A stretch of DNA of 64,000 bases, taken from the NCBI GenBank assembly GCA_025602905.1, contig JAHLKI010000028.1, forward strand, positions 124,001-188,000. The letters run 5' to 3'. The position numbers and the translations under genes were made by a program. Below the pieces are notes generated by a model. The model made no database searches. It was given only the letters and a program-made list of their open reading frames with translations, and was not told the DNA's origin. This stretch comes from Phlyctochytrium arcticum. Taxonomy: Eukaryota; Chytridiomycota; Chytridiomycetes; Chytridiales; Chytridiaceae. Positions 11,947-50,754 of this stretch are shown here, in pieces (position 1 is the first letter of the stretch; each line of letters starts with the position of its first letter).

Positions 11947-12966
11947 CTATCTAGTTAGGCTTTGAGTAGTTGGTGTCGAAAACGTCCAGGTTTTGCATGA
12001 TTCTTCCGTAACAAAACTTTCCAGATTTTCAATGAATTGAGTAAGTCGCTCGGTGGCAAACGGATCACCTTCCGTAACTTTGTCCTCGAGCCGGAAGTAG
12101 TGATTCAGCAGTCTTTCCTCCGCTTCTTTCACTTGACGCTTTCTGTAGTTTCTGTAGATGTCGACTGGGCTGACCTCTTCTCGTTCCACTGCTACGCGAA
12201 CCTTCGTCTCATATACCTCAAAACCACACTCATCAAACAAAAGTGCAAACTGATCCCAAACCTCATCGGTCAATATGGTCTCCTCTGCAAACATATCAGC
12301 ATGAAAGGTATGTTTACATGGCAACAGGTATTGCCTGGCAAAGAGGCAGTTACAATCCAGAGTATCGTAGTCAGGGGCTGGCTTGCCTTTTGCGAGTCGG
12401 TACTCCACCGCCCTGTACTGGTCGATCAAAAGGCGTTGAATGGGCAATGGGAATCGAGCTATGTTTGGATGGTCTTCAGTATCCTTCAGAACCTTTGACC
12501 GAAACAAGATCTCAGCACGATCTGCCTCCAGGCGGCGCTGTGTATTGACTTTGCACAAGCCAACACAAGCTTTCTGAATACTAGAGAACCTTCCACAGTT
12601 AGTGTCTGCTTTGACCAATCGGTGATAGGACTCCAAGGGGTTTGTCGAGGTCACTTGTAGCAGGGTTGGCGAATGTTGCCGTGCGGCCATCGTCCAGCAA
12701 TCGAGCTCGGCGGGGTTCGTCCAGTTCTTCTCGAGGTAATCTGCAAGTTTTTCGGGAGCGTCCCTGATTGCCTCACGCAACAATCCGGTGGCTCCAATCA
12801 TCGTGGTCTTGTTGATTGCCTGAAGCATTTTCGCATACGTTGGCTTGTGCGTACCTATGCGCCGCATGAGAGTGCGGGCGACATGAACCTATGATAGTTC
12901 AAAGCATAGAAATGCGTTCTTTCACTCGGATCAAAACATTACCTTACAATACCGAACTTTGACCTC
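11947..12966 (-). pseudogene. C-terminal half of a MULE (Mutator-like) transposase
   Basis: The minus strand encodes the second half of a MULE transposase: KVHVARTLMRR, then STNPLESYHRLVK, and a SWIM-type zinc motif (CNCLFARQYLLPCKH, i.e. CxC...CxH). A 54-base intron (12889-12942) joins an upstream exon beginning EVKVRYCK to the rest. The exon starts exactly at the 60-base palindrome at 12967. Its first bases (gaggt, plus-strand acctc at 12962-12966) repeat the last bases of the N-terminal half at 46284-46288. The two halves would fuse in frame as ...GEEEV-KVRYC. The gene is therefore one half of a transposase split by insertion of the P unit. Confidence 0.8.
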
Positions 12967-13026
12967 TGTGATAGTGCACTTAAAATCCCATAGTATATAC
13001 TATGGGATTTTAAGTGCACTATCACA
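12967..13026. repeat. 60-base perfect palindrome at the P-unit terminus, copy 1
   Basis: The sequence from tgtgatagtgcac to gtgcactatcaca is its own reverse complement over all 60 bases, so a single strand could fold into a 30-bp hairpin. It begins TG and ends CA. In this copy one more base pair (c/g) extends it. It touches the MULE half directly. Confidence 0.95.
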
Positions 13027-13035
13027 GGGGAGATT

Positions 13036-13141
13036 CCAACTATGGGCCAACTATGCCCCAACTATGCGGCAACTGTGAAGCCCGCTATGTGACCTTACTA
13101 TAAGGCCGCTTCTCCACTATGTGACCTTATGATAAGGTCGC
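13036..13141. promoter_or_regulatory. Iteron-like array and hairpins, possible replication origin, copy 1
   Basis: Four tandem 11-base units of the form ccaactatgSS run from 13036 to 13079, the last degenerate (gcaactgtgaa). They are followed by two copies of 'ctatgtgacctta...ataagg', each with inverted halves (for example gaccttat/ataaggtc). Repeats of this kind next to a terminal palindrome and a replicative helicase gene resemble origins. The function is inferred. Confidence 0.45.
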
Positions 13142-13628
13142 CTCCATCAAACATCGAGCCATCTCACACATTATGAATCATTCCTCTCCATATTTCATCG
13201 AGTGGTGCCGCTTGTCACGGGAAAGGGACTTCCACATTACACCGTGTAATAGGCTGCTTACGTAAGCATCGTGTCTCATCTCCTCACACTCTATCCAAAA
13301 AAGCAACGACCCCCCGGGTTGATCGTTGCTCTCCTTTCAGAGATACCAAATTTATCTTTTAGTGACCTTGGTGAAGACACTGTATCGAGCCATCGAGACC
13401 TGAATCGTTGTGAATCGCTTATGGAGCGGGCCCTTTACGGGACTTTCAATCCTTTATAACATTCTCCGTAATATCGATATAACGCAATATCGATAATCTA
13501 GGATCATCGGGATCATCAGGAGTATCGATATCGCCCCCTGATATTGCTATGTCCCTCTCTGTGTCATTTTTTAATCTCCCCCGATTCTTCAACTTCTCAC
13601 TTATTGAAATGTTTGATTCATTCCCCCG
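13142..13628. other. P-unit leader, noncoding, hairpin-rich
   Basis: No gene is seen. Short inverted repeats include ttacaccgtgtaa, gcttacgtaagc and agcaacga...tcgttgct. A 'gataatctaggatcatc' segment near 13471-13538 is a diverged version of the G6...C6 motif found at the right end of the unit. Confidence 0.5.
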
Positions 13629-13880
13629 ATTGAATCTAACACTTCTAGCCCTTTTTCACCCTCTTTTTTGCCTCTCTCATTCTCAATTTCATTTTACTTT
13701 TTTAAAAAACGTTTTTCTTTTCTCTTTGTCAAATTTTTACAAAAATACCGGCTAGAATGGCTAGGTTTTCTCTCTTCATGTTTTTTTCTACATAAATAAA
13801 AAAAAAAGAATCTCTTTTCTCCATGTTTCTAGACAAAAAAAACCTAGATCGAAAAGGCTATGTCTAGTCTATGATCCTCT
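13629..13880. repeat. Left inverted repeat of the P-unit gene module, copy 1
   Basis: About 250 bases, the reverse complement (with differences) of 16971-17220. Shared landmarks in the left orientation are cacttctagccc, tgcctctctcattctc, ataccggctagaatggctagg and ggctatgtctagtctatgat. The inner edge overlaps the 3' end of the Cys-rich gene. The pair brackets the three-gene module and each arm sits at the 3' end of a gene. Confidence 0.85.
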
Positions 13881-14081
13881 TCTTTCTTCCTTTTTCTCAT
13901 ACATCTTTAATGCGCAGTACGCACATTTATCGGTCCAACTTTGTCTGTCTCTTGGCACTTTCCCGATACACCCAGTCGCTTTATTGACACAAGGCTTAAA
14001 GGAAGTCCAACACCGGTCACAATAGGTCTTTGCATTTCGAATTGTTGTGTTACAATCGGTAGTTTTACAAGGTTTCGGCAT
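13869..14081 (-). CDS. Small Cys-rich (zinc-ribbon-like) protein, P unit copy 1
   Basis: A 70-residue protein with regularly spaced cysteines: CKTTDC near the N-terminus, YCDRCW, CVNKATGC, then CAYC before a basic tail. The CxxC pairs suggest two small zinc knuckles. I do not know the family. It is identical in the second P copy (47191-47403) and remains intact while the helicase is broken. It could be a structural, regulatory or DNA-binding protein of the element. It is transcribed away from the helicase, behind the HTH gene. Confidence 0.65.
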   Translation of the reverse strand: MPKPCKTTDCNTTIRNAKTYCDRCWTSFKPCVNKATGCIGKVPRDRQSWTDKCAYCALKMYEKKEERRGS

Positions 14082-14119
14082 TGTATGACAATGTTTAACT
14101 ATATACTTCTACTGAATGT

Positions 14120-14329
14120 TTAAATGACATTGCGGGTTGCAACTCTTGGTATCCGGTGGATTTTTGCATCGAGATATGTGTGCTTCTCTGGATGTTTCAG
14201 TATTTTATGTGCTGTTACATGCGAAATGCCGAGTTTTTGTGCAAGTTCTCGAATACTGGCTGCCATGACAATCTTTTGTTCATCGAGAAATCGGACAATA
14301 GCAATATAATCAGAATCCGATGCTGGCAT
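14120..14329 (-). CDS. Small helix-turn-helix protein, P unit copy 1
   Basis: A 69-residue protein whose centre reads as a helix-turn-helix (SIRELAQKLGISHVTAHKIL: helix, GIS turn, recognition helix). It is divergently placed from the PrimPol-helicase with about 130 bases between the start codons, the usual arrangement for a repressor acting on both promoters. It is the same in copy 2 (47442-47651). The role as element regulator is inferred from position and fold. Confidence 0.65.
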   Translation of the reverse strand: MPASDSDYIAIVRFLDEQKIVMAASIRELAQKLGISHVTAHKILKHPEKHTYLDAKIHRIPRVATRNVI

Positions 14330-14462
14330 TGTTCAATAGTTTACTACTATTAGCCTATCTTTATATAATATTACACTGATATTTTTGAAATCCGCTATGC
14401 GTTTGCTAGTATTTAAAGTTCTGTTTGGTGATTAATAGGATAGGACAACATTTTATCACAGA
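14330..14462. promoter_or_regulatory. Divergent promoter between HTH and PrimPol genes
   Basis: An AT-rich 133-base gap between two divergent start codons. It contains tatataatatta near 14362, which could serve as a TATA element. Copy 2 differs by one base here (ctatctttata versus ctatctgtata). No operator could be assigned with confidence. Confidence 0.4.
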
Positions 14463-16970
14463 ATGCCACAAACAGAACTTTTCAAATACGCGAAGAAAAT
14501 GAAGCGCGCCAATCCCGCATTTGTTCCCATTCCCGCGTCTACAGTGACAAAAAGACCGCTTGGGAAATGGTCACTAAACAATTATCTATTTGAGCGGGAC
14601 TTTCCCAAGCGTGAAGGATGGGAATCTAACTGTAATATCGGTTTATTGGTATCCGACGAATATTGTTGATGTTGACGCAAAACCTCCGGCTGTTAATGGA
14701 AAAAAGAACACTTACTCGAATAATCACGGAACTGTGGATTTCCAAACGCTTATCGAGCAAAACGAACCACTTCCTGTCACTTTAACTGTTACTACTCCTA
14801 GCGGAGGGAAACATTACTATTTTTCATTAACCGGTAAAGAAGGAGAAGAAAGACTTAAGAACTGGACATCCTGCATGAATGTCAATAATCGTTTAATCGC
14901 TGTTGACATTAGAAAAAAGGGCGGTTATGTTATGTGCCCACCCTCTTTAAAAGGAACAAAACGCTACAGATGGGACACTAACGATGAATTCAATGTTCCC
15001 ATGGCGCCTTTTCCGAATTGGATTCTAAAAAACATCACGACTACAATGACCAAGCATCAAAAACATTTTGAGATGCAAAACTACACAAGCAATCCAGTTG
15101 AAAATACAGAGTTAAACGATGAAGATGTCGAAACTCTCATGTCGAGCAAATTTTGGCAGAATTGCTTCAAAATTGCAAGTTCGTCTACTGTTAACAATTT
15201 GTATATCATCACCGCCACAGCACCTTATTATTGTGACATTTGTGAAAGACAACATATAACAAACTCTAATCATCCATTTCTGGTAAGAAATAACGGTATT
15301 TTAAAATTTGTTTGTCGTCCTGGTAAAGGATTTAATCGAACTCTCGATATTGACTATTTAAAGTTGTGGGAAGATTTTCATCCACCTACTAAAACACTTA
15401 TTGAAAATATGGATGTTTCTAATCGGGCTGTTTCTGAATTACTTTTTCAACACCTCAATAATACCGTCTTACCTACGGCTAACATGAACAAATGGTTGGT
15501 CTTTGATGAGAAAACCGGAGTATGGAGAGAAGAATTTCGGAATGTTATTTTACGTCCGGTTACGGACTATTTCGTGAAATTAGTAAAGGAACTTTCCCAA
15601 ATTTGCTTAAAGTTGCGAGCAGTGGATTCTCTCCAAAGTAATACATGGGAATCACGAATGACAGCGGCGACCGATTTAGACCACTCGCTATCCATGACTA
15701 GTAAGAAAAATGATCACTTGGCAGCACTTTTTGAATTGATACGCGATAGTCGTAAAGACGCACTGTTCAACACGAAACGGGGGCTTCTTCATTGTGCCAA
15801 TGGTGTTTATGACTTGGAAAAAGAAGAATTCAGAGAAGCACGACCTGATGATTATTCTACCGTGTCGTCTAATATAAAATACTTGAACTACGATGAGCAT
15901 CCAAAGGAGAAGCGAGATATCATCGAGAAATTTCTTGATGATGTAATGCTGGGACGTACTGAATTAATCGAATTTTTGCTGAAAATCATGTCATCAACAT
16001 TAGACGGATATGTGCGAGATCAATTCTTCTTTTTCTTTCATGGTGTGGGTGCCAATGCAAAGTCACTTTTGATAAAACTATTGAAGATATGTTTAGGTGA
16101 TTATGGTGCAACCATTCCTTCAGCACTTGTTACTAAAGCAAATGTGAATGCCCAGGCAGCATCTCCCGCTTTGGTGGCTCTAGCACACAAGCGGGGGTCA
16201 TTTTTAACTAGGGGACAAAGTTCTCTTTACGGAATTCTTGAAAATGGTGGCTGGAGGGGATCAGACAAGCGGAAGAGCACTTTACAAAGAACAAGTTGTT
16301 GTTGATCTTATGACAAAGGTGTTTATTGCTGTGAATGATTTACCAAATATTGAGGATAAAACACCGCGGTTTCTGGCGAAAAGTTGTTATAATCCCTTTT
16401 GATTGTTCATTTACTGACGATCCTAAACTACCCCATGAAAAAAAAATCATTGAAAGATACGAGGAAACCCTTCTACAATGTGCTGATACTTTTCTGGCAC
16501 TTTTGATCAAAACTTACATCACGAGTTACAAAAAAGACGGGATTCGTCGTGTTGACCATCCAAAGATTGTTACTGATTTGGTTTCCAAATATGAAGAATC
16601 ACAAAATATCCCTCTCCAGTTTGTGAATGGATCCATATCTAAAACGAACGACAAAAACATGATTATTAGTACAGCAAGCATTGATGAAGCATTTAACAAC
16701 TTTTGCCGAGCAAAAGGAATCACAAAGAACTCGCAGATTGTTAAACATCTCTATGAAATGTTGGATAAGTTGTTTCCCCCTAAAAATGAACGTCGTCAAG
16801 TGTGGAGTGATGGGAAAAATGTACGCGCATGGGTTGGTGGCCGGCTGTTGAACGATTGGGAACTTGCAGGTGATGATGATGAAGTGTATGAGAATGTCAA
16901 CAAAAAGACCTCCGGGAAAAATGGGACGCTCGTGCAGCGAGCAACTCAGCAATGGTACGCTGAAGAATGA
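14463..16970 (+). pseudogene. PrimPol-SF3 (D5-like) primase-helicase, frame-broken, P unit copy 1
   Basis: Predicted replication protein. The N-terminal part is an archaeo-eukaryotic primase/PrimPol domain: NIGLLVSDEY, the catalytic DVDAKP, GGKHYYF, and VDIRKKGGYVMCPPS. The middle is D5_N-like (LVFDEKTGVWREE). The C-terminal superfamily-3 helicase has Walker A GVGANAKSLL and, in another frame, VAGGDQTSGRALYKEQ and WRKVVIIPFD. Coding runs through three consecutive frames (14463-14669, 14590-16305, 16335-16970), so at least three shifts are needed, near 14660, before 16255 and near 16370. The same breaks occur in copy 2, so they predate duplication or reflect unusual decoding. The copy 1 C-terminus differs from copy 2 by a one-base deletion near 16907. 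Confidence 0.85.
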
Positions 16971-17220
16971 AGAGAATCATAGACTAGACATAGCCTTTTT
17001 GAACTAGGTTTTTTTTGTCTCGAAACATGAAGAGAAAAGAGATTTTTTTTTTAAATTTTGTAGAAAAAAACATGAAGAGAGAAATCCTAGCCATTCTAGC
17101 CGGTATTTGAGAGATATTTCTTGAAACAGAAATGAAAAACGTTTTTTATAAAAGTAAAATGAAAATGAGAATGAGAGAGGCAAAAAAAAGGCCGAAAATG
17201 GGCTAGAAGTGTGAGGAATC
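16971..17220. repeat. Right inverted repeat of the P-unit gene module, copy 1
   Basis: Partner of 13629-13880 in inverted orientation. It begins right after the helicase stop codon with atcatagactagacatagcc. A run of ten T's here is eleven in copy 2. Confidence 0.85.
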
Positions 17221-17255
17221 AATAGTAACATCCCCCCATAGCACACCCGTAAAAA

Positions 17256-17334
17256 GGGGGGTCAAATCGTTGATCTTGATAATCTCGATAATCTAGGATC
17301 ATCAGGAACATTAGGATTATCGATATTACCCCCC
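17256..17334. terminator. G6...C6 nested hairpin motif, P unit copy 1
   Basis: A 79-base motif opening with ggggggtcaaatcg and closing with tattacccccc, with an internal inverted pair cgataatct/aggattatcg. Similar motifs occur at 18417-18494, 24753-24830 (inverted) and 50580-50658. One lies between two convergent genes. A transcript-end or packaging role is possible but inferred. Confidence 0.45.
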
Positions 17335-17490
17335 TTTTTTCCTATATGACATGGGATATTTTGTAAAAACAAAGTCCAAACTCTGACATAATGTCGGACT
17401 TTTTTTAAAGTTTGTGTTATTTGCTAGACTTATCAGGATACAAAAGAACAACAAGACGATCAGAATCATTGCTTTAACCCCCCATTCAGA

Positions 17491-18392
17491 ATGTACCGCA
17501 CGGCTCAACAAACTCCAAATCTCATCGAGGATGTGTACAAGAACTTGAAGAAAATAGACGAGTCTTTCTGGGCAATTGGTGAAAGGGCTGAACCAATGAG
17601 TGAGATTATCGAAAAATGGACTCCCATTCATGAAGCCGGACCGTACATTTTCGAACATTTGGATTCTATCCGCGAAATTCAAAAGTCTTTTGATCAACTT
17701 ATGAAGATTCACTTGGAGTGTGACGAAGATGAAGAGGAAGAAGCAAGAAATCTCTACAATGAGACGGAACTCCTACTATATGATATAGTGGCAAACATTG
17801 ACTCGGTTTCACCGGACATGTTTAAAAAATCGTCGACACCTACACCAGAACCAGAACCAGAACCAGCACCTATACACCAGAACCAGAACCAACACCACTC
17901 CCTTCAACCCAGCCAGTACTTCAACAAATGTACGTGCCCGACCCCACACAAGAGATTGAAACTCCACAACCTTCGCCAAGTAAACACGAACTGAAGAAAA
18001 GGGAACGTTTTCAAAAGGAAAGAGAGAGTCTGGTAGACACCATGCGAAATGTTGTCAAATCTTTTAAAATGGATGGACATTACGAGAGCCAGGAGAATTT
18101 CAAACGCTTTTTCTTTCTCAATCTGTCAACACATACAAAATCACGAGGCACCAATAAGAAGATCACCAAAGAATCGGTTTGGAGACTATACGAAACAGTG
18201 ATGGAAACGGACAGATTTGTACAAGTTCATCAGTATTTCTGCAAAGAATGTGACAATTTCTGGAAAAGAGGATGCTGCGATAAGTACAAAAAGTCAACTC
18301 GTGGGAATCGACTGTGGATTGTCAAGAATGCATGTTTTCCAGACAAGTTTCATGAGCATTGTCGCGAAGGCGCAAAATGTGGAAAATGTTGA
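17491..18392 (+). pseudogene. Element protein of unknown function, frame-broken (A unit, left)
   Basis: About 300 residues in two frames. The first part is acidic and helical (DEDEEEEARNLYNETELLL). Then comes a Pro-Glu repeat linker (PTPEPEPEPAP), a basic stretch (KHELKKRERFQKERE) and a Cys-rich C-terminus (CKECDNFWKRGCCDKY ... HCREGAKCGKC) that probably binds zinc. The frame changes inside the PEPEP repeat near 17870 (ORFs 17491-17994 and 17928-18392), where one extra base explains the break. The same break is in the right arm. I do not recognise the family. Confidence 0.6.
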
Positions 18393-18416
18393 AAGGTAGT
18401 TTCAAGGCTTAAGAAC

Positions 18417-18494
18417 GGGGGTCAAATCGTTAATCTTGATAATCTCGATAATCTAGAATTATCAGGAACAATAGGATTATCGAGATAACCCCCC
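18417..18494. terminator. G6...C6 hairpin motif between convergent genes
   Basis: A version of the motif at 17256-17334 (gggggtcaaatcg ... ataacccccc) placed between the A-unit gene (plus) and the integrase remnant (minus). That position fits a bidirectional transcript end. Confidence 0.45.
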
Positions 18495-18504
18495 ACCCCC
18501 CCAT

Positions 18505-18924
18505 AAATCGTGCTTTTGCTTCTGCCGAAATATTTTCATCACCCCGCTCCATTTCGTTTGGAGAAAACCCTGTTGCTGTTTACTTTACCGAATTGATATT
18601 GTCAATAACTGTCTGAAGATTATTAACCCATTTTTTATCATTATTTGACCCCATGATTTGGTCTAACTGACGTTTAATATCGCCTCCTCTTCTCTCAACG
18701 TACGCATTACTTTGCGGTCTGGCTACTTGTGAATAAAAATGTTTGATTCCATTATCACCGAGTTCCCTTTTGAAAGATTTATTGAAATTGCGCGCCTTGA
18801 TCCGTTTGCATTATTGAGATTTTCTTTCCTTCTCGTCGAGCATTGCCAAGGCACTTCTTTAATGCTTCGGTCACTTCTTCTTCACTTTCGCCTCTAAGTG
18901 GAGCAGCATATCCTTTTAGCGACA
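18505..18924 (-). pseudogene. Retroviral-type (DDE) integrase remnant, left
   Basis: The minus strand encodes a broken rve-type integrase core related to Polinton-like integrases: GYAAPLRGESEEEVTEAL, MQTDQGAQF (second catalytic Asp), then in another frame ARPQSNAYVERRGGD (catalytic Glu kept) and TGFSPNEME. The region of the first catalytic Asp is replaced (SSMSLKGYAAP). There is a frameshift after GAQFQ and a stop before TGFSPN. From 18662 toward lower coordinates it lies within the 1235-base identical arm. Confidence 0.75.
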
Positions 18925-18993
18925 TGGATGAAATGTAGAATGTTGTGTGGATTGTATAAATCAAATGTATTGTGATCTTTCCTATGTAAATGA

Positions 18994-19215
18994 TCAATTA
19001 TTCGGTTCAAACTCGTAAATTGCTTCCCTATTGTCTCCAAAATCTCCAAGCGGAACCCACGAATTGTCTTGTGGGTTGTTATACCCGACCCACTTAACAA
19101 GGAATTCGACAACTTCCTCTCCATCTACCATGCGAGTTCGCTTGTCAATGATGTAGTCTACCTCGTAATATCCTTCCTGATTTGGTGGAGGATTGACGGG
19201 CTGAGCGGGTTGCAA
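18994..19215 (-). pseudogene. Chromodomain fragment
   Basis: The minus strand encodes a chromodomain: YYEVDYIIDKRTR, VEFLVKWVGYNNPQDNSWVP, ending FEPNN and a stop. Chromodomains form the C-terminus of Polinton and chromovirus integrases, where they bind modified histones. Here it precedes the integrase core in reading direction instead of following it, so it is probably the tail of a different integrase copy. Its upstream part is cut off near 19247 by the Crinkler unit. Confidence 0.75.
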
Positions 19216-19430
19216 AAGTCCTTGGAGGGCGAGGATCTATATGAATGCACTGTACTGGTTCTAGTGCTGCATCTAGTGCTGCCTCTAGTACACTACTGCC
19301 CTCTGCACAGAACCGATGTTTTCACGCCGCCCACGCGCTGCTTTTTGATATCTGTGCCACTGACTGCAGTTGTTGACTGACTGACCATTCCAGTAGCCGA
19401 AATACGGCAAGCAAGATTCAGGAAACAACC

Positions 19431-20941
19431 ATGACGACAATTTGGTTTCAACTAACTACTGCCAACGGCAAGAGAGTACCTGGAACAGTTGATTTTGTCG
19501 AACTGGCGAAAACTTCGACTGTGGGCAATCTGCGCGATGCTGTGAAGGGGAAGTGCGCCAACGACTTGGAGAAGGTGGACGCAAACAAACTCCTTGTGTA
19601 CGCCAACGCAGAAGCACTAAAGAGGGACAAAGACGAACCCGAACCCAAGCACTGGTTGAAAGCGGGGAAAACGCTGGACTCGGTACTGGAAGAAGCAAAA
19701 GACCACTCGGATGAGAACCCGCTGCTGATTGTGGTGCCGGAGCGAGTCCCGCCGACAAATAGTGGTAAGGGAGGGGTTCGTGTCGAGTATTTATAGCGTC
19801 TTTGCTAACGATTCAGTTTGTCCCGCTTTCTCTTTGGCCTCTTCACCTCTACCTGCATTTCTCGCATGTAGATGCTGCCGTCGAAACGGGCGTGGTTCGT
19901 CTGCAGTTGTTCCTTGGAAAGGCAAAAAAACCCAACTTAAATACAAATGTGCCCACGTTCAATCATAAGATTCACATCCCGAGTTATCTAGTTCAACATG
20001 GCTTGCGCACCATTTTTCGAATTGATGGCGAGAAAGACGTCGACATTCCAACGGACAGCAACGGGTATACCATTCTTACATGGGAGGCGAAAAAGGTGTA
20101 CAAGATCCGCGGTCGACAGGCTGGGGATGCAGATCAAGAGATTTCATTTTCCTCAGACCATGCAAAAGACCTTTTTAAGGTGGAAGATGATTTCAACATC
20201 AAAGACTCATCATTGTTTTTGACAATGACAACTGCCGTGGAAGTGCCGGAAAAATCGATTGATTATGTTTGCCATTTCCTGACAATTTTCTGCAAGCACC
20301 ACACGAAGAGGTTGGAATCGTCGCGACGCTTTGTTGTGGGGCTTTTCTTGAATGAAGCCATTGATCAAGTAGCGATAAGCCTATCCCGTCTCATCATTGA
20401 TGAGGAGATGGAGATATCCGTTATTACTGAAGTGAACAAACGACCTGGAAAGCCATTTCTTGTCAAGTATCATGGCGCAGTTGATTTTGCGGTTGGTCAT
20501 GCTGTTCGGGTTGGGGAGCGACTACGGAATGACACTGCAGTCGTTGCAATTGAGGTGAAGCGAGGTACGACTTATGCTGAATCAGAAGCACAAGTGCTTG
20601 CGCAAGCGGCGACATCGCTTTTGGTGCGACAGAAACAGAAACGAGGGTGGCAACTCGGGGAGGACGTAGTCTATTATATCCGAACCACTGGCGAAACATG
20701 GGAGTTTGGACGGCTAATCTCGGAGGGCGACGGTTCCCTCCTGAGGGAAAAAAGCGAGTCGGTGTACCTAGACTTGTCGTCGGAATCAGTAGACCGCGGG
20801 GAGGTAGGGCAAGTCCTGTCTTGGTTCGTATTTATCTTGAACAAGGCAAAGGACTCTAGTCCCCGCGCTTCCTTGGTAGAATTACGCCCGGATTCTAGAG
20901 TGGAGAATCTGGCGAGTAGAGTTAGTAGGTTGAACGTATAA
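19431..20941 (+). CDS. Crinkler (CRN) family protein with PD-(D/E)xK nuclease-like domain
   Basis: The CDS joins 19431-19764 and 19872-20941 across a 107-base GT-AG intron, giving 467 residues. Residues 1-105 resemble the ubiquitin-like CRN header (WFQLTTANGKRVPG ... HWLKAGKTLDSVLEEA ... NPLLIVVPE). The C-terminal part resembles a restriction-endonuclease fold: GAVDFAVG, then VAIEVKRG (E-x-K), then EAQVLAQAA and YYIRTTGETWEFGRL. Crinkler proteins are known as effectors in oomycetes and as large families in chytrids, and the nuclease class has been linked to transposon proteins. No signal peptide is evident. The frame is intact while the partner NTPase is broken. Whether it is a host effector or the element's nuclease is open. 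Confidence 0.8.
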
Positions 20942-21892
20942 TGAGCGCTTTCTTGCTTGGAAATGAAATCGCCCGAGTTTCTTGAAATATTCGAGCCAGT
21001 AAACCGCAGCGATCGCCAAGTATTCGAACCGTCCACTCAGTAAGCGCATCAAGGTGGTTCACACTTCTCCGGAGACTGCACAACTTATCCGTCTTCAACC
21101 CTTTGCCCTGAATGAAGAACAGCGGTCTGTGTTACAAAAGCGGCTGTGGCTGTCACTGTTTGCCGATAATTGTGAGCCGGGGGAACACCTTGTATATCAT
21201 GACGTGGCGAGGAGGACGGAGAATGAATGGTTATCTATGTATGCATGAGTTAGCGGTTGGGAGGATGGTTGGAGAGAAAGTGAAGATTGCGATTGTTAGC
21301 CTCGCATTTGTATCGATGTAAAGGTGCAGAGGAAGGAGCATTTAAGGGCGTGGTATTTGTATAGTATCATAGATCATCACTTTGAAAGACGATTCAAAGT
21401 TAACGTCTGTATTGACGCCAAGTCCCTTCCGACACATTTGAAGTCCGTCTCCGTTGCGTAGGCTACGGAGGCCATGGAGACAAATTGTTGAAGGAAGCAG
21501 AAAGTGGAAAGTATGTAGCAAGTGAGGTCGAAAAGTGAAGAAACTGCGGGTGTACTTTTGACCAAAGATTCATGTAGTGCATCGCTTGTAACTTTGTCGT
21601 ACTCGAGAAGTCTGTAGCAAATGAAGATTGTTTGTAAATTTGGTTGATGAAAATGTAAACAAGTGAGGCGCGTGTGTGGGAAAATTGCGGGTAGCATTCA
21701 CCAGTGAAGCGGAAAGTTGCAAAAGTGCGTTTTAAGTCGCTAAAGTCATTCCAATTGACGGTTTTCGAATGTTTTTTACCATTTTGATGGTTTATCGACA
21801 TAAACAGGGTGAAAACGGGGTGAAAACGGGTGTTTTTCACACATTCCCATTTTGGCAAAATTAGGATAACCCTTTTTCCTTGAGTTGTCTCG
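20942..21892 (+). other. Spacer within Crinkler unit with a remnant NTPase C-terminus
   Basis: About 950 bases. A 64-codon frame (21054-21248) is not recognised. The stretch 21580-21690 repeats 23520-23645 with differences. It would read as a degraded copy of the NTPase C-terminus (VVLEKSVANED versus VSVLDKSVANKE), followed by the shared tail gtgtgggaaaattgcgggt. So an older NTPase copy ended here. Confidence 0.5.
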
Positions 21893-23612
21893 ATGAAATC
21901 AAAACCATTTGAAATTGGAAAAACTGAAATCATGGAGTACGGCTCTCCATCGCTCTCCATGTTTTCACACATCGATGAAGAGGTCTCTCCATCGGCTGCA
22001 GACGAAACTACATGCTATTGGATTGAAGCGCAGCCATGCCACTCCATCGGACTCCAAGATTACATAAATCAGTGGCTTAACAACCGCACTGAAGTCTTTT
22101 GCAAACGCTCAATTGGTTGAAGAATACATTCAGTCTCAAGACCAAACGTTGCTCCCATATCCTCCAGACAAAATCGAAAAACTTTACGTCAGGCAGTGCT
22201 ATAAAGACGTTTATGAATTGCTCTTGACATCTATTGGTGGAGACGAGGAATCTTTTGCAATATCTGGGACACCAGGCATCGGAAAGTCACTATTCTTTCT
22301 CTACATCTTGTACCGCTTGATGGATGACCTTCGCCCGCAAACTCTGCCTTCAAATCCCGATACTCTGCTTTTCAAGCCGAAGCGGGTTGTCTATCAACAA
22401 CGCTCCTCGTACATATGCTTTGATTTGCAGCAACAACGCGTTACCAGCATCACGCAGGCTCAGGCGGGCGCATTGGTTTTTGAACAACATACATTCTACG
22501 TTATTGATGGAAAGTCTGCGCCGCTCCTTTCCAAATGTGTTACACTGTTCATTTCATCTCCCCATAAAGACTCGTTCAAGGAAATCGTGAAGCAGAAGAA
22601 GGGCAAGAAATGGTACTTGCCTGTTTGGACCCTGGCCGAGTTGCAGACTTGTCGGCAGCACTGCTATACGGGCGTCCTCCCTGAAACGCTTTGAGAAAGG
22701 CATCGTGTCTGTGGTGGAGTCGCTCGCTTTGTGTTTCACGCGGATTATGTCAGTACAGTGGAAACGGACATAAAAAGTGCTTTGGCTGATGTTGATGCTG
22801 TTCGGGGTCAAATATGTCGGAGAAACCACAAGGATCTTTCCACAATCACATGTGCTGATGCACATACTGGTGGGAAATGAGGAGGATGGGAATGCTACCA
22901 GTTTACCGACTTGGATGTGGCGTCAAAGTATATCGCGGAACAATTGTGGATACGGCATTCTGCCCAAATGCTTACCAATCTGCGGGATATGTTCGGCGGT
23001 AGCCCCAACGAGATTTCAAAACATTTGTTTGAGATATATGGACATAGGGTTTTTTCTGTTGGTGGTCGAAATCACAAATGCAGATGCTTGAAAAGTGGCA
23101 CCGAATCCGAAATTGCATTGAATGGTTACAATGGCGAACGAACTCAGTGTGGAACAAATAGCATCCCTACTATTGAATACCTTCCGAGACCAAGATAATT
23201 TTCCAGCAATTGATTCTCTCAGTTCTCAAGGAATGTTCCAATTTACAGTAGCAGCCGAGCATGCAATTCGCGGGTTTGAAATTTTGCGCAAATTTTGCAA
23301 CTTGTACGACAAACCGAGACTATTTCGTTGTTCCTCCCCATCGGTATGCTGCCTTGAAGAAACAGCCTTTCAAAGCAAAAAAGGGCAATGCTGATGTGCA
23401 GGAAATCCATGGATTGGAGCAATATGTTTTGGAACTCCCCTGTCGAATAGTAAACCTGTCGTTGTATTTTTTGCAATTTGTTTCATAAGAAGGAGGATGT
23501 ATTTGCTAAATTGAACATAGGAAATCAAATTGCTCTCGGTAATGTCGTTTCCGTACTCGATAAGTCCGTCGCAAATAAGGAATGTTCGTATTATTTGTCG
23601 ATGAAAATGTAG
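21893..23612 (+). pseudogene. Crinkler-type P-loop NTPase, frame-broken
   Basis: Family landmarks appear in order but in changing frames: AQPCHSIGLQDYINQWL, then Walker A SGTPGIGKSLFF near 22262, YQQRSSYICFDLQQ, GGVARFVFHADYV, DVASKYIAEQLW, HLFEIYGHRVFSVGG, NFPAIDSLSSQGMFQF, YFVVPPHRYAALKKQPF, GLEQYVLELP, and finally SVLDKSVANKE with a stop at 23610-23612. Frame shifts fall near 22090, after 22690, between 22800 and 22900, near 23190 and near 23330-23460. Such NTPases accompany the nuclease domain in Crinkler/RHS-type proteins. Here the gene is dead, so the unit is probably no longer autonomous. Confidence 0.75.
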
Positions 23613-23731
23613 CAAGTGAGGCTCTTGTGTGGGAAAATTGCGGGTGGCGGCTGTGGCAGTCTGAAAACATCTGAGACATCAGTTCTGTACAGAGGGCAGT
23701 ACTAGAGGCAGCACTAGAACCAGTACAGTGC

Positions 23732-24310
23732 GTTGATATTTTTCTGAATCTTACCCCGGAACCTCAATTTTTCTCATGTGCGATTCTGGAATCATGACTG
23801 TTGAAGCGTATCTAAAAAGGTGAAAGGGCAGGTCAACTTTCAATTCCGTACGTATGGGATACTAGCCCAACTTTCGTCTGACTGCAAGAATGGATCTTAG
23901 AGTGGCGGTCGCCACAAATTCCGTATGCTTCATTGGACCGAAGAAATCGTCAACGCTCACTCAGGCTGAAAAGACAAGCGATTGCTGAAATATGAAGCAT
24001 GTAATTTAGCGGGTTTGAATGAGAAAGTCTATGAAGTCTCTGGAGACTCTAGGGACACTAGAGACATGAAGAGACCATCATCCTTATTCGATTAAGATTT
24101 GTATTTATGGAACAAACTGGAAATTCAGACGAAAAAACTGCGGGTGTAATTTTGCGGGTTCTCAAAAGTTGGAAGAAGTGCCGTTTTAGGTCGATGAACG
24201 CCAGTTTTTGCCACGTTTTACACTTGTTTTTGCATGGTTTGCGTTTCATCGATAGAAATGGAGTGTAAACGGCCTATAAACACCCGTTCTTCGTACTTGG
24301 CCACTTCCAC
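23732..24310. other. Spacer between Crinkler unit and right integrase remnant
   Basis: No gene is seen. The part 24150-24290 (gtgccgttttaggtcg ... taaacaccc) resembles 21720-21835 inside the Crinkler unit (gtgcgttttaagtcgc ... aaacgggtg). This suggests another partial Crinkler-unit flank or promoter copy lies here. Confidence 0.4.
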
Positions 24311-24740
24311 ATGATTGACGAATTCACAAAAACGGGATACGCTCAACCGCTTAGAGGCTAAAGCGAAGAAGAAGTAACGGAAGCATTGAAGAAGTGTTTA
24401 CAAAAGGCTGATGCTGAAGGTAAAAAAGTGTCAAGTATGCAAACAGATCGAGGCGCACATTTCCAACAAATCTTTAAACAAGAACTCGAAGATCGCGGGG
24501 TGAAGTATTTCTACAGTCAAGCGGCAAGACCGCAATCAAATGCCTTTGTCAAGCGCCGTGGAGGTGATATAAAAAGACAATTATACCAAATCATGGGGTC
24601 AAATAATGATAAAAAATGGGTTAATAATCTTCAGACAGTTATTGACAATATCAATTCGGTAAAGTAAACAGCAACAGGGTTTTCTCCAAACGAAATGGAG
24701 CGGGGTGATGAAAATATTTCGGCAGAAGCAAAAGCACGAT
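24311..24740 (+). pseudogene. Retroviral-type (DDE) integrase remnant, right
   Basis: The plus strand encodes the integrase core: MIDEFTKTGYAQPLRG (first catalytic Asp), a stop, SEEEVTEALKKCLQ, MQTDRGAHF (second Asp), KYFYSQAARPQSNAFVKRRGG, NDKKWVNNLQTVIDNI, a stop, TGFSPNEMERG. The catalytic Glu position is Lys (FVKRRGG versus YVERRGG in the left copy). From 24585 the sequence is part of the 1235-base inverted repeat; before that it differs from the left remnant at roughly 30 percent of bases. It is inactive. Confidence 0.75.
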
Positions 24741-25819
24741 TTATGGGGGGGTGGGGGGTTATCTCGATAATCCTATTGTTCCTGATAATTCTAGATTATC
24801 GAGATTATCAAGATTAACGATTTGACCCCCGTTCTTAAGCCTTGAAACTACCTTTCAACATTTTCCACATTTTGCGCCTTCGCGACAATGCTCATGAAAC
24901 TTGTCTGGAAAACATGCATTCTTGACAATCCACAGTCGATTCCCACGAGTTGACTTTTTGTACTTATCGCAGCATCCTCTTTTCCAGAAATTGTCACATT
25001 CTTTGCAGAAATACTGATGAACTTGTACAAATCTGTCCGTTTCCATCACTGTTTCGTATAGTCTCCAAACCGATTCTTTGGTGATCTTCTTATTGGTGCC
25101 TCGTGATTTTGTATGTGTTGACAGATTGAGAAAGAAAAAGCGTTTGAAATTCTCCTGGCTCTCGTAATGTCCATCCATTTTAAAAGATTTGACAACATTT
25201 CGCATGGTGTCTACCAGACTCTCTCTTTCCTTTTGAAAACGTTCCCTTTTCTTCAGTTCGTGTTTACTTGGCGAAGGTTGTGGAGTTTCAATCTCTTGTG
25301 TGGGGTCGGGCACGTACATTTGTTGAAGTACTGGCTGGGTTGAAGGGAGTGGTGTTGGTTCTGGTTCTGGTGTATAGGTGCTGGTTCTGGTTCTGGTTCT
25401 GGTGTAGGTGTCGACGATTTTTTAAACATGTCCGGTGAAACCGAGTCAATGTTTGCCACTATATCATATAGTAGGAGTTCCGTCTCATTGTAGAGATTTC
25501 TTGCTTCTTCCTCTTCATCTTCGTCACACTCCAAGTGAATCTTCATAAGTTGATCAAAAGACTTTTGAATTTCGCGGATAGAATCCAAATGTTCGAAAAT
25601 GTACGGTCCGGCTTCATGAATGGGAGTCCATTTTTCGATAATCTCACTCATTGGTTCAGCCCTTTCACCAATTGCCCAGAAAGACTCGTCTATTTTCTTC
25701 AAGTTCTTGTACACATCCTCGATGAGATTTGGAGTTTGTTGAGCCGTGCGGTACATTCTGAATGGGGGGTTAAAGCAATGATTCTGATCGTCTTGTTGTT
25801 CTTTTGTATCCTGATAAGT
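24585..25819. repeat. 1235-base inverted repeat, right arm (A unit)
   Basis: Reverse complement of 17428-18662. It includes the G6...C6 motif (24753-24830, inverted) and the A-unit gene on the minus strand. It ends ctgataagt at 25819, after which host-like unique sequence begins. Confidence 0.85.
24855..25756 (-). pseudogene. Element protein of unknown function, frame-broken (A unit, right)
   Basis: Minus-strand twin of 17491-18392: acidic helical N-terminus, Pro-Glu linker, basic stretch, Cys-rich C-terminus, and the identical frame break in the linker. A longer in-frame start (25825) exists here because the flank differs, but MYRTAQQ at 25756 is the start shared by both copies. Confidence 0.6.
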
Positions 25820-45218: not shown

Positions 45219-46288
45219 ATGTCTCAGCTTCGTGCCGCCAACTATGCTCGTGCAAGAAATTCGTCTTTGTACTATCGCCGCGAACGACTCTTTCATCCCG
45301 TCACTGCCGTCCAAATCCCCATCGAGGAGTTTGAGGCAGAGTGGAAACTTGGCGACAACTTCTGGACGCAATACAATGTCTACAATTATAAACGCAATGG
45401 GAACAAGTTGATAAGTTACAAGTGCAAATTTGACAAGCATCGCCAATCCAAAGGTAAACGACCCGACAAGGAAGGCGCTCCGCAAAAAAAGAGAAGGATT
45501 ACAAGCGTTTTCAGTCAAATTCCATGCACCGCACGCTTGGATGTATTCTTCAACAATTACACCAAGATGGTGACCTTCCAACATCCAACAGGATATGCCG
45601 AACACTCTGAAGGACACGACATTGGGGATGCTGATGACCGTCATTTATGTGGCCACGCATGCGACCTTATCAAGGCGGAAGCAGAATCGCCCTATGCTCA
45701 TAAAGACGTTGCAAAAGCTTTACCCTTGATTATTAAACGTTCAACATCCCCCAACCGTGCCAGCGCCCTCGGTCTAGATCGCATTTCTGCACGTGCTGTG
45801 TACAACGCTCGTTGGAGAGAGCGTCAGGAGCAGGCGGCCCCCCCAGGTTCGCTAGCGGACGACGCGATGCATGCTATTGACTACTTGTCGGCTGAAGGTT
45901 ACATCGTCAAGAGGTTCTTAACGGATGGATCTGACGAACAAGCCGCTGAAGGGTTTGCATTTGCAGTAAAGGAATCATTGAAACTACTTCCCAGCTGTAG
46001 TTATTTAGTTTTACTAGACTCCACCCATAAAACGAACCGATACGACTGGAGACTATTTACATGCATGATCAGAAACCAACAAGGCAGTTGGCTACCAGCG
46101 GCGCAGTTCTTTGTCAGTAACGAAAATGGGGATGCAGTATTCCAGGGCTTGGAGAAAGTTAGAGAAATGGTAGTGGAGGTGTGCGGGGTCGAATGGCAGC
46201 CGCGAAACATGCAGGTTGATCAATCAAACATTGAGAAGAATGGGATTATGCTTGCTTTCCCTGGCATGTCCGCGGGAGAAGAGGAGGT
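45219..46288 (+). pseudogene. N-terminal half of a MULE (Mutator-like) transposase
   Basis: The plus-strand frame carries an N-terminal FLYWCH/FAR1-like zinc region (YNVYNYKRNGNKLISYKC, later HPTGYAEHSEGHD). It is followed by the MULE transposase core: LLDSTHKTNRYDWRLF (catalytic Asp), GSWLPAAQFFVSNENGD, and QVDQSNIEKNGIMLAFPG (second Asp). The frame reaches GEEEV and then enters the palindrome of P unit copy 2 at 46289. The last five bases, gaggt, recur next to the C-terminal half (12962-12966, complement). The gene is therefore the other half of the transposase at 11947-12966. Confidence 0.85.
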
Positions 46289-46348
46289 TGTGATAGTGCA
46301 CTTAAAATCCCATAGTATATACTATGGGATTTTAAGTGCACTATCACA
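46289..46348. repeat. 60-base perfect palindrome at the P-unit terminus, copy 2
   Basis: Identical to 12967-13026. Unlike copy 1 it is not extended by an extra base pair, because the flanking base is t instead of c. Confidence 0.95.
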
Positions 46349-46357
46349 GGGGAGATT

Positions 46358-46463
46358 CCAACTATGGGCCAACTATGCCCCAACTATGCGGCAACTGTGA
46401 AGCCCGCTATGTGACCTTACTATAAGGCCGCTTCTCCACTATGTGACCTTATGATAAGGTCGC
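46358..46463. promoter_or_regulatory. Iteron-like array and hairpins, copy 2
   Basis: Same four 11-base units and hairpin pair as 13036-13141, unchanged. Confidence 0.45.
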
Positions 46464-46950
46464 CTCCATCAAACATCGAGCCATCTCACACATTATGAAT
46501 CATTCCTCTCCATATTTCATCGAGTGGTGCCGCTTGTCACGGGAAAGGGACTTCCACATTACACCGTGTAATAGGCTGCTTACGTAAGCATCGTGTCTCA
46601 TCTCCTCACACTCTATCCAAAAAAGCAACGACCCCCCGGGTTGATCGTTGCTCTCCTTTCAGAGATACCAAATTTATCTTTTAGTGACCTTGGTGAAGAC
46701 ACTGTATCGAGCCATCGAGACCTGAATCGTTGTGAATCGCTTATGGAGCGGGCCCTTTACGGGACTTTCAATCCTTTATAACATTCTCCGTAATATCGAT
46801 ATAACGCAATATCGATAATCTAGGATCATCGGGATCATCAGGAGTATCGATATCGCCCCCTGATATTGCTATGTCCCTCTCTGTGTCATTTTTTAATCTC
46901 CCCCGATTCTTCAACTTCTCACTTATTGAAATGTTTGATTCATTCCCCCG

Positions 46951-47202
46951 ATTGAATCTAACACTTCTAGCCCTTTTTCACCCTCTTTTTTGCCTCTCTC
47001 ATTCTCAATTTCATTTTACTTTTTTAAAAAACGTTTTTCTTTTCTCTTTGTCAAATTTTTACAAAAATACCGGCTAGAATGGCTAGGTTTTCTCTCTTCA
47101 TGTTTTTTTCTACATAAATAAAAAAAAAAGAATCTCTTTTCTCCATGTTTCTAGACAAAAAAAACCTAGATCGAAAAGGCTATGTCTAGTCTATGATCCT
47201 CT
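46951..47202. repeat. Left inverted repeat of gene module, copy 2
   Basis: Same as 13629-13880. Pairs with 50294-50544. Confidence 0.85.
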
Positions 47203-47403
47203 TCTTTCTTCCTTTTTCTCATACATCTTTAATGCGCAGTACGCACATTTATCGGTCCAACTTTGTCTGTCTCTTGGCACTTTCCCGATACACCCAGTCG
47301 CTTTATTGACACAAGGCTTAAAGGAAGTCCAACACCGGTCACAATAGGTCTTTGCATTTCGAATTGTTGTGTTACAATCGGTAGTTTTACAAGGTTTCGG
47401 CAT
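47191..47403 (-). CDS. Small Cys-rich protein, P unit copy 2
   Basis: Identical 70-residue protein to 13869-14081, with the same CxxC pairs and basic C-terminus. Its unbroken state in both copies contrasts with the helicase. Confidence 0.65.
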   Translation of the reverse strand: MPKPCKTTDCNTTIRNAKTYCDRCWTSFKPCVNKATGCIGKVPRDRQSWTDKCAYCALKMYEKKEERRGS

Positions 47404-47441
47404 TGTATGACAATGTTTAACTATATACTTCTACTGAATGT

Positions 47442-47651
47442 TTAAATGACATTGCGGGTTGCAACTCTTGGTATCCGGTGGATTTTTGCATCGAGATATG
47501 TGTGCTTCTCTGGATGTTTCAGTATTTTATGTGCTGTTACATGCGAAATGCCGAGTTTTTGTGCAAGTTCTCGAATACTGGCTGCCATGACAATCTTTTG
47601 TTCATCGAGAAATCGGACAATAGCAATATAATCAGAATCCGATGCTGGCAT
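47442..47651 (-). CDS. Small helix-turn-helix protein, P unit copy 2
   Basis: Identical 69-residue protein to 14120-14329, again divergent from the helicase with the same 133-base gap (one substitution in the gap near 47685). Confidence 0.65.
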   Translation of the reverse strand: MPASDSDYIAIVRFLDEQKIVMAASIRELAQKLGISHVTAHKILKHPEKHTYLDAKIHRIPRVATRNVI

Positions 47652-47784
47652 TGTTCAATAGTTTACTACTATTAGCCTATCTGTATATAATATTACACTG
47701 ATATTTTTGAAATCCGCTATGCGTTTGCTAGTATTTAAAGTTCTGTTTGGTGATTAATAGGATAGGACAACATTTTATCACAGA

Positions 47785-50286
47785 ATGCCACAAACAGAAC
47801 TTTTCAAATACGCGAAGAAAATGAAGCGCGCCAATCCCGCATTTGTTCCCATTCCCGCGTCTACAGTGACAAAAAGACCGCTTGGGAAATGGTCACTAAA
47901 CAATTATCTATTTGAGCGGGACTTTCCCAAGCGTGAAGGATGGGAATCTAACTGTAATATCGGTTTATTGGTATCCGACGAATATTGTTGATGTTGACGC
48001 AAAACCTCCGGCTGTTAATGGAAAAAAGAACACTTACTCGAATAATCACGGAACTGTGGATTTCCAAACGCTTATCGAGCAAAACGAACCACTTCCTGTC
48101 ACTTTAACTGTTACTACTCCTAGCGGAGGGAAACATTACTATTTTTCATTAACCGGTAAAGAAGGAGAAGAAAGACTTAAGAACTGGACATCCTGCATGA
48201 ATGTCAATAATCGTTTAATCGCTGTTGACATTAGAAAAAAGGGCGGTTATGTTATGTGCCCACCCTCTTTAAAAGGAACAAAACGCTACAGATGGGACAC
48301 TAACGATGAATTCAATGTTCCCATGGCGCCTTTTCCGAATTGGATTCTAAAAAACATCACGACTACAATGACCAAGCATCAAAAACATTTTGAGATGCAA
48401 AACTACACAAGCAATCCAGTTGAAAATACAGAGTTAAACGATGAAGATGTCGAAACTCTCATGTCGAGCAAATTTTGGCAGAATTGCTTCAAAATTGCAA
48501 GTTCGTCTACTGTTAACAATTTGTATATCATCACCGCCACAGCACCTTATTATTGTGACATTTGTGAAAGACAACATATAACAAACTCTAATCATCCATT
48601 TCTGGTAAGAAATAACGGTATTTTAAAATTTGTTTGTCGTCCTGGTAAAGGATTTAATCGAACTCTCGATATTGACTATTTAAAGTTGTGGGAAGATTTT
48701 CATCCACCTACTAAAACACTTATTGAAAATATGGATGTTTCTAATCGGGCTGTTTCTGAATTACTTTTTCAACACCTCAATAATACCGTCTTACCTACGG
48801 CTAACATGAACAAATGGTTGGTCTTTGATGAGAAAACCGGAGTATGGAGAGAAGAATTTCGGAATGTTATTTTACGTCCGGTTACGGACTATTTCGTGAA
48901 ATTAGTAAAGGAACTTTCCCAAATTTGCTTAAAGTTGCGAGCAGCGGATTCTCTCCAAAGTAATACATGGGAATCACGAATGACAGCGGCGACCGATTTA
49001 GACCACTCGCTATCCATGACTAGTAAGAAAAATGATCACTTGGCAGCACTTTTTGAATTGATACGCGATAGTCGTAAAGACGCACTGTTCAACACGAAAC
49101 GGGGGCTTCTTCATTGTGCCAATGGTGTTTATGACTTGGAAAAAGAAGAATTCAGAGAAGCACGACCTGATGATTATTCTACCGTGTCGTCTAATATAAA
49201 ATACTTGAACTACGATGAGCATCCAAAGGAGAAGCGAGATATCATCGAGAAATTTCTTGATGATGTAATGCTGGGACGTACTGAATTAATCGAATTTTTG
49301 CTGAAAATCATGTCATCAACATTAGACGGATATGTGCGAGATCAATTCTTCTTTTTCTTTCATGGTGTGGGTGCCAATGCAAAGTCACTTTTGATAAAAC
49401 TATTGAAGATATGTTTAGGTGATTATGGTGCAACCATTCCTTCAGCACTTGTTACTAAAGCAAATGTGAATGCCCAGGCAGCATCTCCCGCTTTGGTGGC
49501 TCTAGCACACAAGCGGGGGTCATTTTTAACTAGGGGACAAAGTTCTCTTTACGGAATTCTTGAAAATGGTGGCTGGAGGGGATCAGACAAGCGGAAGAGC
49601 ACTTTACAAAGAACAAGTTGTTGTTGATCTTATGACAAAGGTGTTTATTGCTGTGAATGATTTACCAAATATTGAGGATAAAACACCGCGGTTTCTGGCG
49701 AAAAGTTGTTATAATCCCTTTTGATTGTTCATTTACTGACGATCCTAAACTACCCCATGAAAAAAAAATCATTGAAAGATACGAGGAAACCCTTCTACAA
49801 TGTGCTGATACTTTTCTGGCACTTTTGATCAAAACTTACATCACGAGTTACAAAAAAGACGGGATTCGTCGTGTTGACCATCCAAAGATTGTTACTGATT
49901 TGGTTTCCAAATATGAAGAATCACAAAATATCCCTCTCCAGTTTGTGAATGGATCCATATCTAAAACGAACGACAAAAACATGATTATTAGTACAGCAAG
50001 CATTGATGAAGCATTTAACAACTTTTGCCGAGCAAAAGGAATCACAAAGAACTCGCAGATTGTTAAACATCTCTATGAAATGTTGGATAAGTTGTTTCCC
50101 CCTAAAAATGAACGTCGTCAAGTGTGGAGTGATGGGAAAAATGTACTCGCATGGGTTGGTGGCCGGCTGTTGAACGATTGGGAACTTGCAGGTGATGATG
50201 ATGAAGTGTATGAGAATGTCAACAAAAAAGACCTCCGGGAAAAATGGGACGCTCGTGCAGCGAGCAACTCAGCAATGGTACGCTGA
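47785..50286 (+). pseudogene. PrimPol-SF3 primase-helicase, frame-broken, P unit copy 2
   Basis: Same domain order and the same three frame breaks as copy 1 (ORFs 47785-47991, 47912-49627, 49657-50286). Two amino-acid changes are visible: LRAADSL versus LRAVDSL, and NVLAWVGG versus NVRAWVGG. An extra A near 50228 restores a different C-terminus (KDLREKWDARAASNSAM), which reads as the more natural end. Copy 1 therefore has an additional break that copy 2 lacks. Confidence 0.85.
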
Positions 50287-50293
50287 AGAATGA

Positions 50294-50544
50294 AGAGAAT
50301 CATAGACTAGACATAGCCTTTTTGAACTAGGTTTTTTTTGTCTCGAAACATGAAGAGAAAAGAGATTTTTTTTTTTAAATTTTGTAGAAAAAAACATGAA
50401 GAGAGAAATCCTAGCCATTCTAGCCGGTATTTGAGAGATATTTCTTGAAACAGAAATGAAAAACGTTTTTTATAAAAGTAAAATGAAAATGAGAATGAGA
50501 GAGGCAAAAAAAAGGCCGAAAATGGGCTAGAAGTGTGAGGAATC
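50294..50544. repeat. Right inverted repeat of gene module, copy 2
   Basis: Partner of 46951-47202, one T longer than in copy 1. Confidence 0.85.
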
Positions 50545-50579
50545 AATAGTAACATCCCCCCATAGCACACCCGTAAAAA

Positions 50580-50658: not shown

Positions 50659-50754
50659 TTTTTTCCTATATGACATGGGATATTTTGTAAAAACAAAGTC
50701 CAAACTCTGACATAATGTCGGACTTTTTTTAAAGTTTGTGTTATTTGCTAGACT

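Follow-up and report, generated by a model that had tools for sequence, protein, structure and literature searches.

Polinton-like viruses (PLVs) integrated in the genome of the chytrid Phlyctochytrium arcticum end in palindromes whose two arms have changed together, and on this basis we consider it probable that the tips of these PLVs replicate as hairpins. The unit described here (12967-17430) is one end of a defective integrated PLV. It lies in a window of 64,000 nucleotides, C28:124001-188000 (C-numbers denote contigs of the P. arcticum assembly, 31.5 Mb in 91 contigs), for which a preliminary description had proposed a 4.46-kb mobile replicon in two near-identical copies. The observations used were sequence symmetry, co-variation of the arms, flip/flop of the loops, target duplications, and gene content, all read from integrated copies.

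Near-clade ends were located with search patterns in which only the outer 12 bp were fixed, giving 32 + 6 = 38 forward matches genome-wide versus 0 for a reversed-pattern control. Thirty-seven of the 38 ends were read (C22:7405 was left out). Exact self-complementarity was found for 32 of the 37, and three more differed at the centre only, corresponding to a loop of 2-3 nt. The remaining two are the ends of a single element, C4:1108570-1159050 (target-site duplication [TSD] CAGAA), with mismatches at 1 and 20 positions and arm edit distances of 1 and 9. The near-clade palindromes comprise 13 distinct sequences; the distance from arm to arm within a palindrome was 0 or 1 in 12 of these types, and the distance between types ranged from 1 to 27 edits. 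At C23:264889 (TSD TTACC) and C42:122036-154553 (TSD GCCAT), the two ends carried different palindromes, each of them exact. The terminal inverted repeats (TIRs) also diverged between ends, with 11 differences in 300 bp for the C17 element and 20 mismatches plus 6 gaps in ∼300 bp for the C23 element. Because the TIRs of these two elements differ between their ends, palindromes included, we conclude that symmetry is kept within each end and not through copying between ends.

The same design was found in a second clade (clade 2), PLVs whose capsid protein is ∼41-43% identical to the near-clade protein P0017 and whose PrimPol is ∼49-51% identical. Seven clade-2 loci (L049-L055) were scanned for palindromes with at most 1 mismatch, a stem of at least 14, and a loop of at most 8 nt (for L049-L051, a stem of at least 16 and a loop of at most 6 nt). 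The scan returned two near-perfect palindromes, one on C15 and one on C18, and no other at those thresholds; L051 held two weaker 16-nt repeat pairs (94%) with arms 9 and 79 nt apart. The C15 and C18 palindromes share the outer sequence CACGGTGCAT...ATGCACCGTG and have unrelated interiors. A genome search with this outer sequence identified 22 ends (10 distinct), of which 21 had unbroken stems of 27-31 bp with loops of 0-5 nt, and 20 were read together with their flanks. Five two-ended elements (C3, C4:348971, C15, C23:393498, and C41) possessed TG...CA ends and duplications of exactly 5 bp. In C41 and C3, two of the three informative elements, the asymmetric loop at one end lay in the orientation opposite to that at the other. 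The C1:1308260/1323978 pair was not counted as an independent insertion, its flanks being the same as those of C3, and C45:20150 and C45:39506 were rejected as one element since both are right-hand ends. The idea that PrimPol is the clade-2 gene nearest the end was also rejected, as loci L049-L053 proved to be interior and only L054 and L055 contained ends. A third clade in the same genome (e.g., C25:402889 and C54:4733) has a major capsid protein at ∼27-31% identity.

Arms changing together is the pattern that the hairpin telomeres of poxviruses and African swine fever virus (ASFV) or the rolling-hairpin ends of parvoviruses would leave. We favour hairpin replication of the tips because the arms are exact, drift, and co-vary at the very ends of the elements and because the loops occur in flip and flop forms. 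The main rival, which we disfavour and judge unlikely, is that perfect symmetry is maintained after integration, by host template switching (quasi-palindrome correction) or hairpin-mediated repair on the chromosome. Correction of quasi-palindromes by template switching is known for palindromes in general, and the C22:7405 end has a duplicated structure resembling the product of such a switch. However, C3:1361091 carries an uncorrected one-arm change that C1:1308260 lacks, although the two contigs share one duplicated site; the ends of C4:1108570-1159050 have decayed, and the seven clade-2 loci contained no further near-perfect palindromes (only the two weaker pairs in L051). Chromosomal correction also leaves unexplained why the palindromes of two clades, unlike in sequence, sit precisely at the element ends, and why the loops of C41 and C3 are opposite.

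The window element illustrates these ends in a rearranged setting. It carries exact 60-bp terminal palindromes, identical in sequence, at end A (12967-13026) and end B (46289-46348), neither assigned a strand. The 5-bp TSD GAGGT adjoins the palindrome on the outer flank of both ends (12962-12966, minus strand; 46284-46288, plus strand). These flanks are the two halves of a Mutator-like element (MULE) transposase gene, with the C-terminal half outside end A (11947-12966, minus strand; near-identical to 13 genomic copies) and the N-terminal half, containing PF10551, outside end B (45219-46288, plus strand). A genome search revealed 13 near-identical MULE N-terminal halves outside the window (14 with the window's own), and in 13 of 13 near-identical paralogs the site was empty, the C-terminal half directly continuing the N-terminal half and the two halves overlapping by exactly 5 bp. 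Since GAGGT is present on both flanks and all 13 MULE copies are uninterrupted, we conclude that ends A and B are the two ends of a single insertion into a MULE gene. The second copy in the preliminary description is real, with 5 differences from the first in 4,466 alignment columns, but it is the other end of the same insertion and not a second one; the empty sites and the GAGGT duplication, together with a replicase that is broken in both copies, rule against a stand-alone replicon.

The layout of the two sides agrees with this conclusion. The TIR of side A is 5.7 kb long (12967-18662, plus strand), and its partner lies in two pieces: an outer part containing end B (46289-50754, plus strand), with the same broken PrimPol-SF3 gene, and an inner part (24585-25819, minus strand) that is an exact 1,235-bp inverted copy of 17428-18662. 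The middle of the defective element, without strand, lies between both repeats at 18663-24584. Position 17430, which had been taken as the end of the unit, was rejected as a terminus; homology between A and B stops there, and the inverted repeat continues at 24585-25819, running on to 18662 on side A. The outer edge of the inner repeat, 25819, is the point where end B should attach. The separation of A and B may thus be explained by one inversion of 25820-50754, and undoing it would give a single element of ∼17.3 kb with 5.7-kb inverted ends. It is quite unlikely that the two copies are instead independent 4.46-kb insertions at the same site in two MULE copies, each having lost one side. Two targets do exist, the MULE being multi-copy (14 near-identical N-terminal halves including that of the window), but this explanation requires the same target base twice and two reciprocal losses, whereas one insertion with GAGGT and one inversion account for the layout, including the exact inner repeat 17428-18662/24585-25819.

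When the open reading frames (ORFs) of the C4 and C23 elements were compared with the window by tblastn, no match to capsid, penton, or ATPase genes was obtained, and the only matches were to PrimPol, small ORFs, end-repeat sequence, and integrase pieces. The window insertion, which lacks genes for capsid, penton, and ATPase, is a defective, capsid-less derivative of a PLV that was later split by rearrangement. The replicase is broken in the same way at both ends, which implies either mobilisation in trans or later homogenisation of the ends, and the data favour neither. Past the repeat boundary (18663-18946 versus 24305-24584) the two sides carry different integrase alleles, as if the element had arisen by recombination between two viruses.

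Relatives that share these ends but are larger, spanning 23.8-25.1 kb from end to end, have genes for a double-jelly-roll capsid protein, an A32-type ATPase, an rve integrase, and, in C4 and C23, an intact PrimPol-SF3 protein. The longer version whose search the preliminary description had recommended therefore exists, and its suggestion of a fragment of a Polinton-like virus was sound; copies were not always located inside a fully described transposon family, nor were helicase homologs confined to host genes. The packaging ATPase, of the A32/FtsK type, matched PF04665 (E 1e-7), the integrase of the C23 element combines rve and Chromo domains (a chromodomain integrase), and the TIR of the C4 element is 1,201 bp and 100% identical. 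A candidate penton is 64% identical to a sequence deposited as 'penton' for Powellomyces chytrid fungus MELD virus 5. Target duplications of 5 bp were present in six of eight near-clade pairs and in all five of the clade-2 elements.

With an integrase encoded by the virus, the palindrome might be only its recognition site, the symmetry having been selected for binding. All ends found agree in their outer 10-12 bp (although these were the search pattern), both arms offer the same site, and the ends are TG...CA, as is usual for rve integrases. We nevertheless regard this explanation as very unlikely: if binding were selected for, the sequence should be constrained, whereas the inner part differs widely among ends (13 and 10 types) and is still self-complementary.

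The replication genes were examined by Pfam among 19 viral proteins of the C4 and C23 elements, a set that did not extend to small ORFs or to the long fibre-like ORF in its C4 copy. No PolB family was present in this set, and the only large replication gene recognised in the two elements was PrimPol-SF3, for which the nearest solved sequence is the primase C962R, an ASFV protein. The same 19 proteins gave no Pfam match to an HUH nicking endonuclease, dedicated profiles not being used. Protein-primed synthesis as in true Polintons, with incidental palindromes, is extremely unlikely, for although PLVs and Polintons have capsid and integrase ancestry in common and a protein-primed PolB (pPolB) is present, rarely, in cryptophyte PLVs (PMC12220804), no PolB domain was recognised in the 19 proteins of C4 and C23 and PrimPol-SF3 stood as the sole large replication gene recognised there.

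According to the hairpin reading that we prefer, the viral genome would be linear while outside the chromosome, and each tip would fold into a hairpin that is copied through in replication. Each round would rewrite one arm from the other, so that the palindrome stays perfect while its sequence drifts and its loop can flip. The PrimPol-SF3 protein, related to C962R, may start or drive this hairpin synthesis. Integration would follow when the rve integrase cuts a fully extended end along its outer edges and inserts the element with a 5-bp stagger; after integration the palindrome would no longer be renewed and could decay. The present data are compatible both with closed hairpins and with an open rolling hairpin.

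Several points weigh against hairpin copying. No extrachromosomal form was seen, all of the evidence coming from integrated copies, and IMG/VR yielded no free virus when queried with the major capsid protein, PrimPol, and two palindrome patterns (the longer near-clade pattern was left out). A covalently closed end would correspond to half of the palindrome and the integrated ends to the whole, so the model requires a further step in which the end is opened or extended. No telomere or Holliday-junction resolvase was recognised by Pfam among the 19 viral proteins, several of which have no family at all. Some near-clade types are one edit apart, so the 13 types do not amount to 13 independent cases. 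Two of the eight near-clade pairs, C4:900741-925880 (TGGTG/TTGTG) and C5:1119671-1128805, lack identical 5-bp flanks, and no partner for the C18 end appears among the listed clade-2 ends. The loops of C23:393498, one of the three informative elements, have the same orientation at both ends. Finally, the old age of C4:1108570-1159050 rests on its decayed ends and 50-kb span and not on a date. More tentatively, and with chances somewhat short of even, chytrid PLVs might be linear viruses that unite true hairpin telomeres, ASFV-like PrimPol-SF3 replication, and retroviral-type integration, the replicase being exchangeable and the telomere design constant.

Replicases do vary among elements with these ends. 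The C23:264889-289396 element encodes a different PrimPol-SF3 protein of 835 aa, and a third replicase type (870 aa, DUF5906) adjoins a near-clade palindromic end on C24. In the larger elements a 260-bp repeat reappears between blocks of genes; it borders PrimPol in the window and, in C17 and C23, an HNH gene. Taken together, the variety of replicases and the 260-bp repeats look like module exchange at repeated intergenic sequence; exchange of replication genes has already been described for PLVs (PMC12220804). The HNH gene encodes an HNH-AP2 endonuclease (domains assigned from a scan of the L014 copy) and lies beside the repeat in one terminal region of the C23 (L014 5915-6388) and C17 (L017 6639-7112) PLVs; it was not among the ORFs listed at their opposite ends.

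Other cargo and neighbours of the PLVs were also recorded. The C4 PLV (L009 4627-5495) encodes two proteins, a response-regulator receiver protein and an F-box-like one, unusual cargo for a virus of this size, and a clade-2 PLV (L051 1337-3070) has adenine (D12) and cytosine-5 DNA methyltransferases between PrimPol and a fibre-like ORF. On C47 and C39 (L019 4617-8000; L022 85-2931), a PLV palindromic end is separated from a PLV primase piece by Helitron-type genes (Helitron_like_N, PIF1 helicase). Two PLV-sized elements stand 584 bp apart at C4:875379-925880 (L009, L011, L038); the right flank of the second starts with TTGTG, the target duplication of the first, and its left flank is TGGTG. 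Several PLV ends are within ∼5 kb of contig ends (C9, C17, C24, C29, C32, C37, and C67), which may reflect breaks in the assembly or a preference for subtelomeric sites. Searching the PDB by sequence with the alignment of major capsid proteins gave a single insignificant match (E 0.23).

Within the window element, the PrimPol-SF3 helicase gene (14463-16970, plus strand) is split over several frames and has intact relatives of 839 and 843 aa. The frame at 14590-16305 matched Prim-Pol (PF09250, E 2e-14) and D5_N (PF08706, E 2e-11), which bears out the assignment as a PrimPol with a D5-like helicase. Alignment with the intact 843-aa relative was only piecewise, in different frames and with stops, and the breaks are the same in both copies. 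The predicted HTH regulator exists as a 69-aa ORF (14120-14329, minus strand; also in the C4 element at L011 6506-6715, 97%), but its best Pfam match, HTH_10 (E 3e-4), is below the Pfam cut-off, so that it is better termed HTH-like. The Cys-rich protein was confirmed as a 70-aa ORF (13869-14081, minus strand; also in the C4 element at L011 6754-6957, 91%) with no significant Pfam family. The inverted repeats noted earlier correspond to the ∼260-bp intergenic repeat of the virus (13629-13889, plus strand) and its second arm (16962-17223, minus strand), 88% identical.

Further inward, two overlapping ORFs of 167 and 154 aa (17491-18392, plus strand) gave only insignificant Pfam matches; related DNA is found on C17, and the matches on C47 and C39 are confined to the stretch immediately before the ORFs, starting at 17237 and reaching 17457 at the furthest. 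Remnants of the rve integrase are located on side A (18505-18946, minus strand; tblastn to L013_328_1689 residues 101-249) and on the other side (24305-24742, plus strand), the latter differing from the former beyond the repeat boundary. For part of the middle (18910-19791), related DNA occurs on C8 and C24 at loci with Crinkler-like genes. The Crinkler-like N-terminal sequences near PLV genes on these contigs (L023 9377-9979; L026 1373-1879) matched PF20147 with E 8e-5 and 2e-3, both below the cut-off. An nSTAND-like match at 22113-22691 was insignificant (E 0.05).

In many elements no polymerase can be detected, and these may replicate in some other way (PMC10120064). The chytrid palindromes bear on the question of end copying in PLVs that do not have the Polinton polymerase. 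The integrated copies in one fungus form a readable record of end replication, with dozens of palindromes whose arms changed together, which makes hairpin replication of PLVs directly testable and offers a simple sequence test for other PLV genomes.

The chytrid elements resemble Maverick/Polinton transposons in their rve integrase, capsid genes, and TIRs. They differ in having palindromic tips, in that pPolB was not recognised (19 proteins of C4 and C23), and in their 5-bp duplications, those of Maverick/Polinton being 6 bp (PMC12747079). Cryptophyte and other protist PLVs with a primase-SF3 helicase (PMC12220804, PMC10120064, PMC4642659) are alike in using a primase-helicase in place of pPolB, in their major capsid protein, ATPase, and TIRs, and in having replication genes swapped between capsid lineages; their TIRs are several hundred bp, and palindromic tips go unmentioned in the available text of PMC12220804 and PMC4642659. 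PLVs are already known in chytrids from the Spizellomyces punctatus group (Bellas and Sommaruga 2021, PMC7805220), which of the published groups that we found comes closest. It shares a chytrid host, capsid homologs 68-69% identical, and integration with inverted repeats, with TSDs of 5-7 bp for three elements; the parts of that paper at hand do not mention terminal palindromes or hairpin ends, which are present here in two clades. No account of palindromic or hairpin ends in PLVs was recognised in the open full-text literature as far as it was available, most subscription papers and all preprints lying outside it. The deposited genes of Powellomyces chytrid fungus MELD viruses 2 and 5 are also similar (MELD virus 5 hexon 64%, penton 64%). 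Chytrid PLVs being known, the palindromic ends in two clades appear to be the new aspect.

The palindromes may provide a bridge from PLVs to the hairpin telomeres of poxviruses and asfarviruses. On the more tentative reading of chytrid PLVs as linear viruses with true hairpin telomeres, the end copying of giant viruses and polinton-type integration would be united in one 25-kb genome, and the hairpin telomeres of giant viruses may predate giant viruses themselves. Poxviruses, ASFV, and phycodnaviruses have a D5/C962R-type primase-helicase; they are far larger viruses, and their genomes are not normally known to integrate with target duplication. Vaccinia has a known Holliday-junction resolvase (PMC8956199); none was recognised among the 19 proteins of the chytrid PLVs. 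At the poxvirus concatemer junction an inverted repeat is extruded and then cut into hairpin ends (PMC8956199), and flip-flop hairpin termini are cited for the virus family of C962R (PMC11788076). The hairpin telomeres of poxviruses, ASFV, and phycodnaviruses (PMC8956199, PMC11788076, PMC12085832) resemble the chytrid ends in their inverted-repeat concatemer junctions, flip/flop forms, and TIRs.

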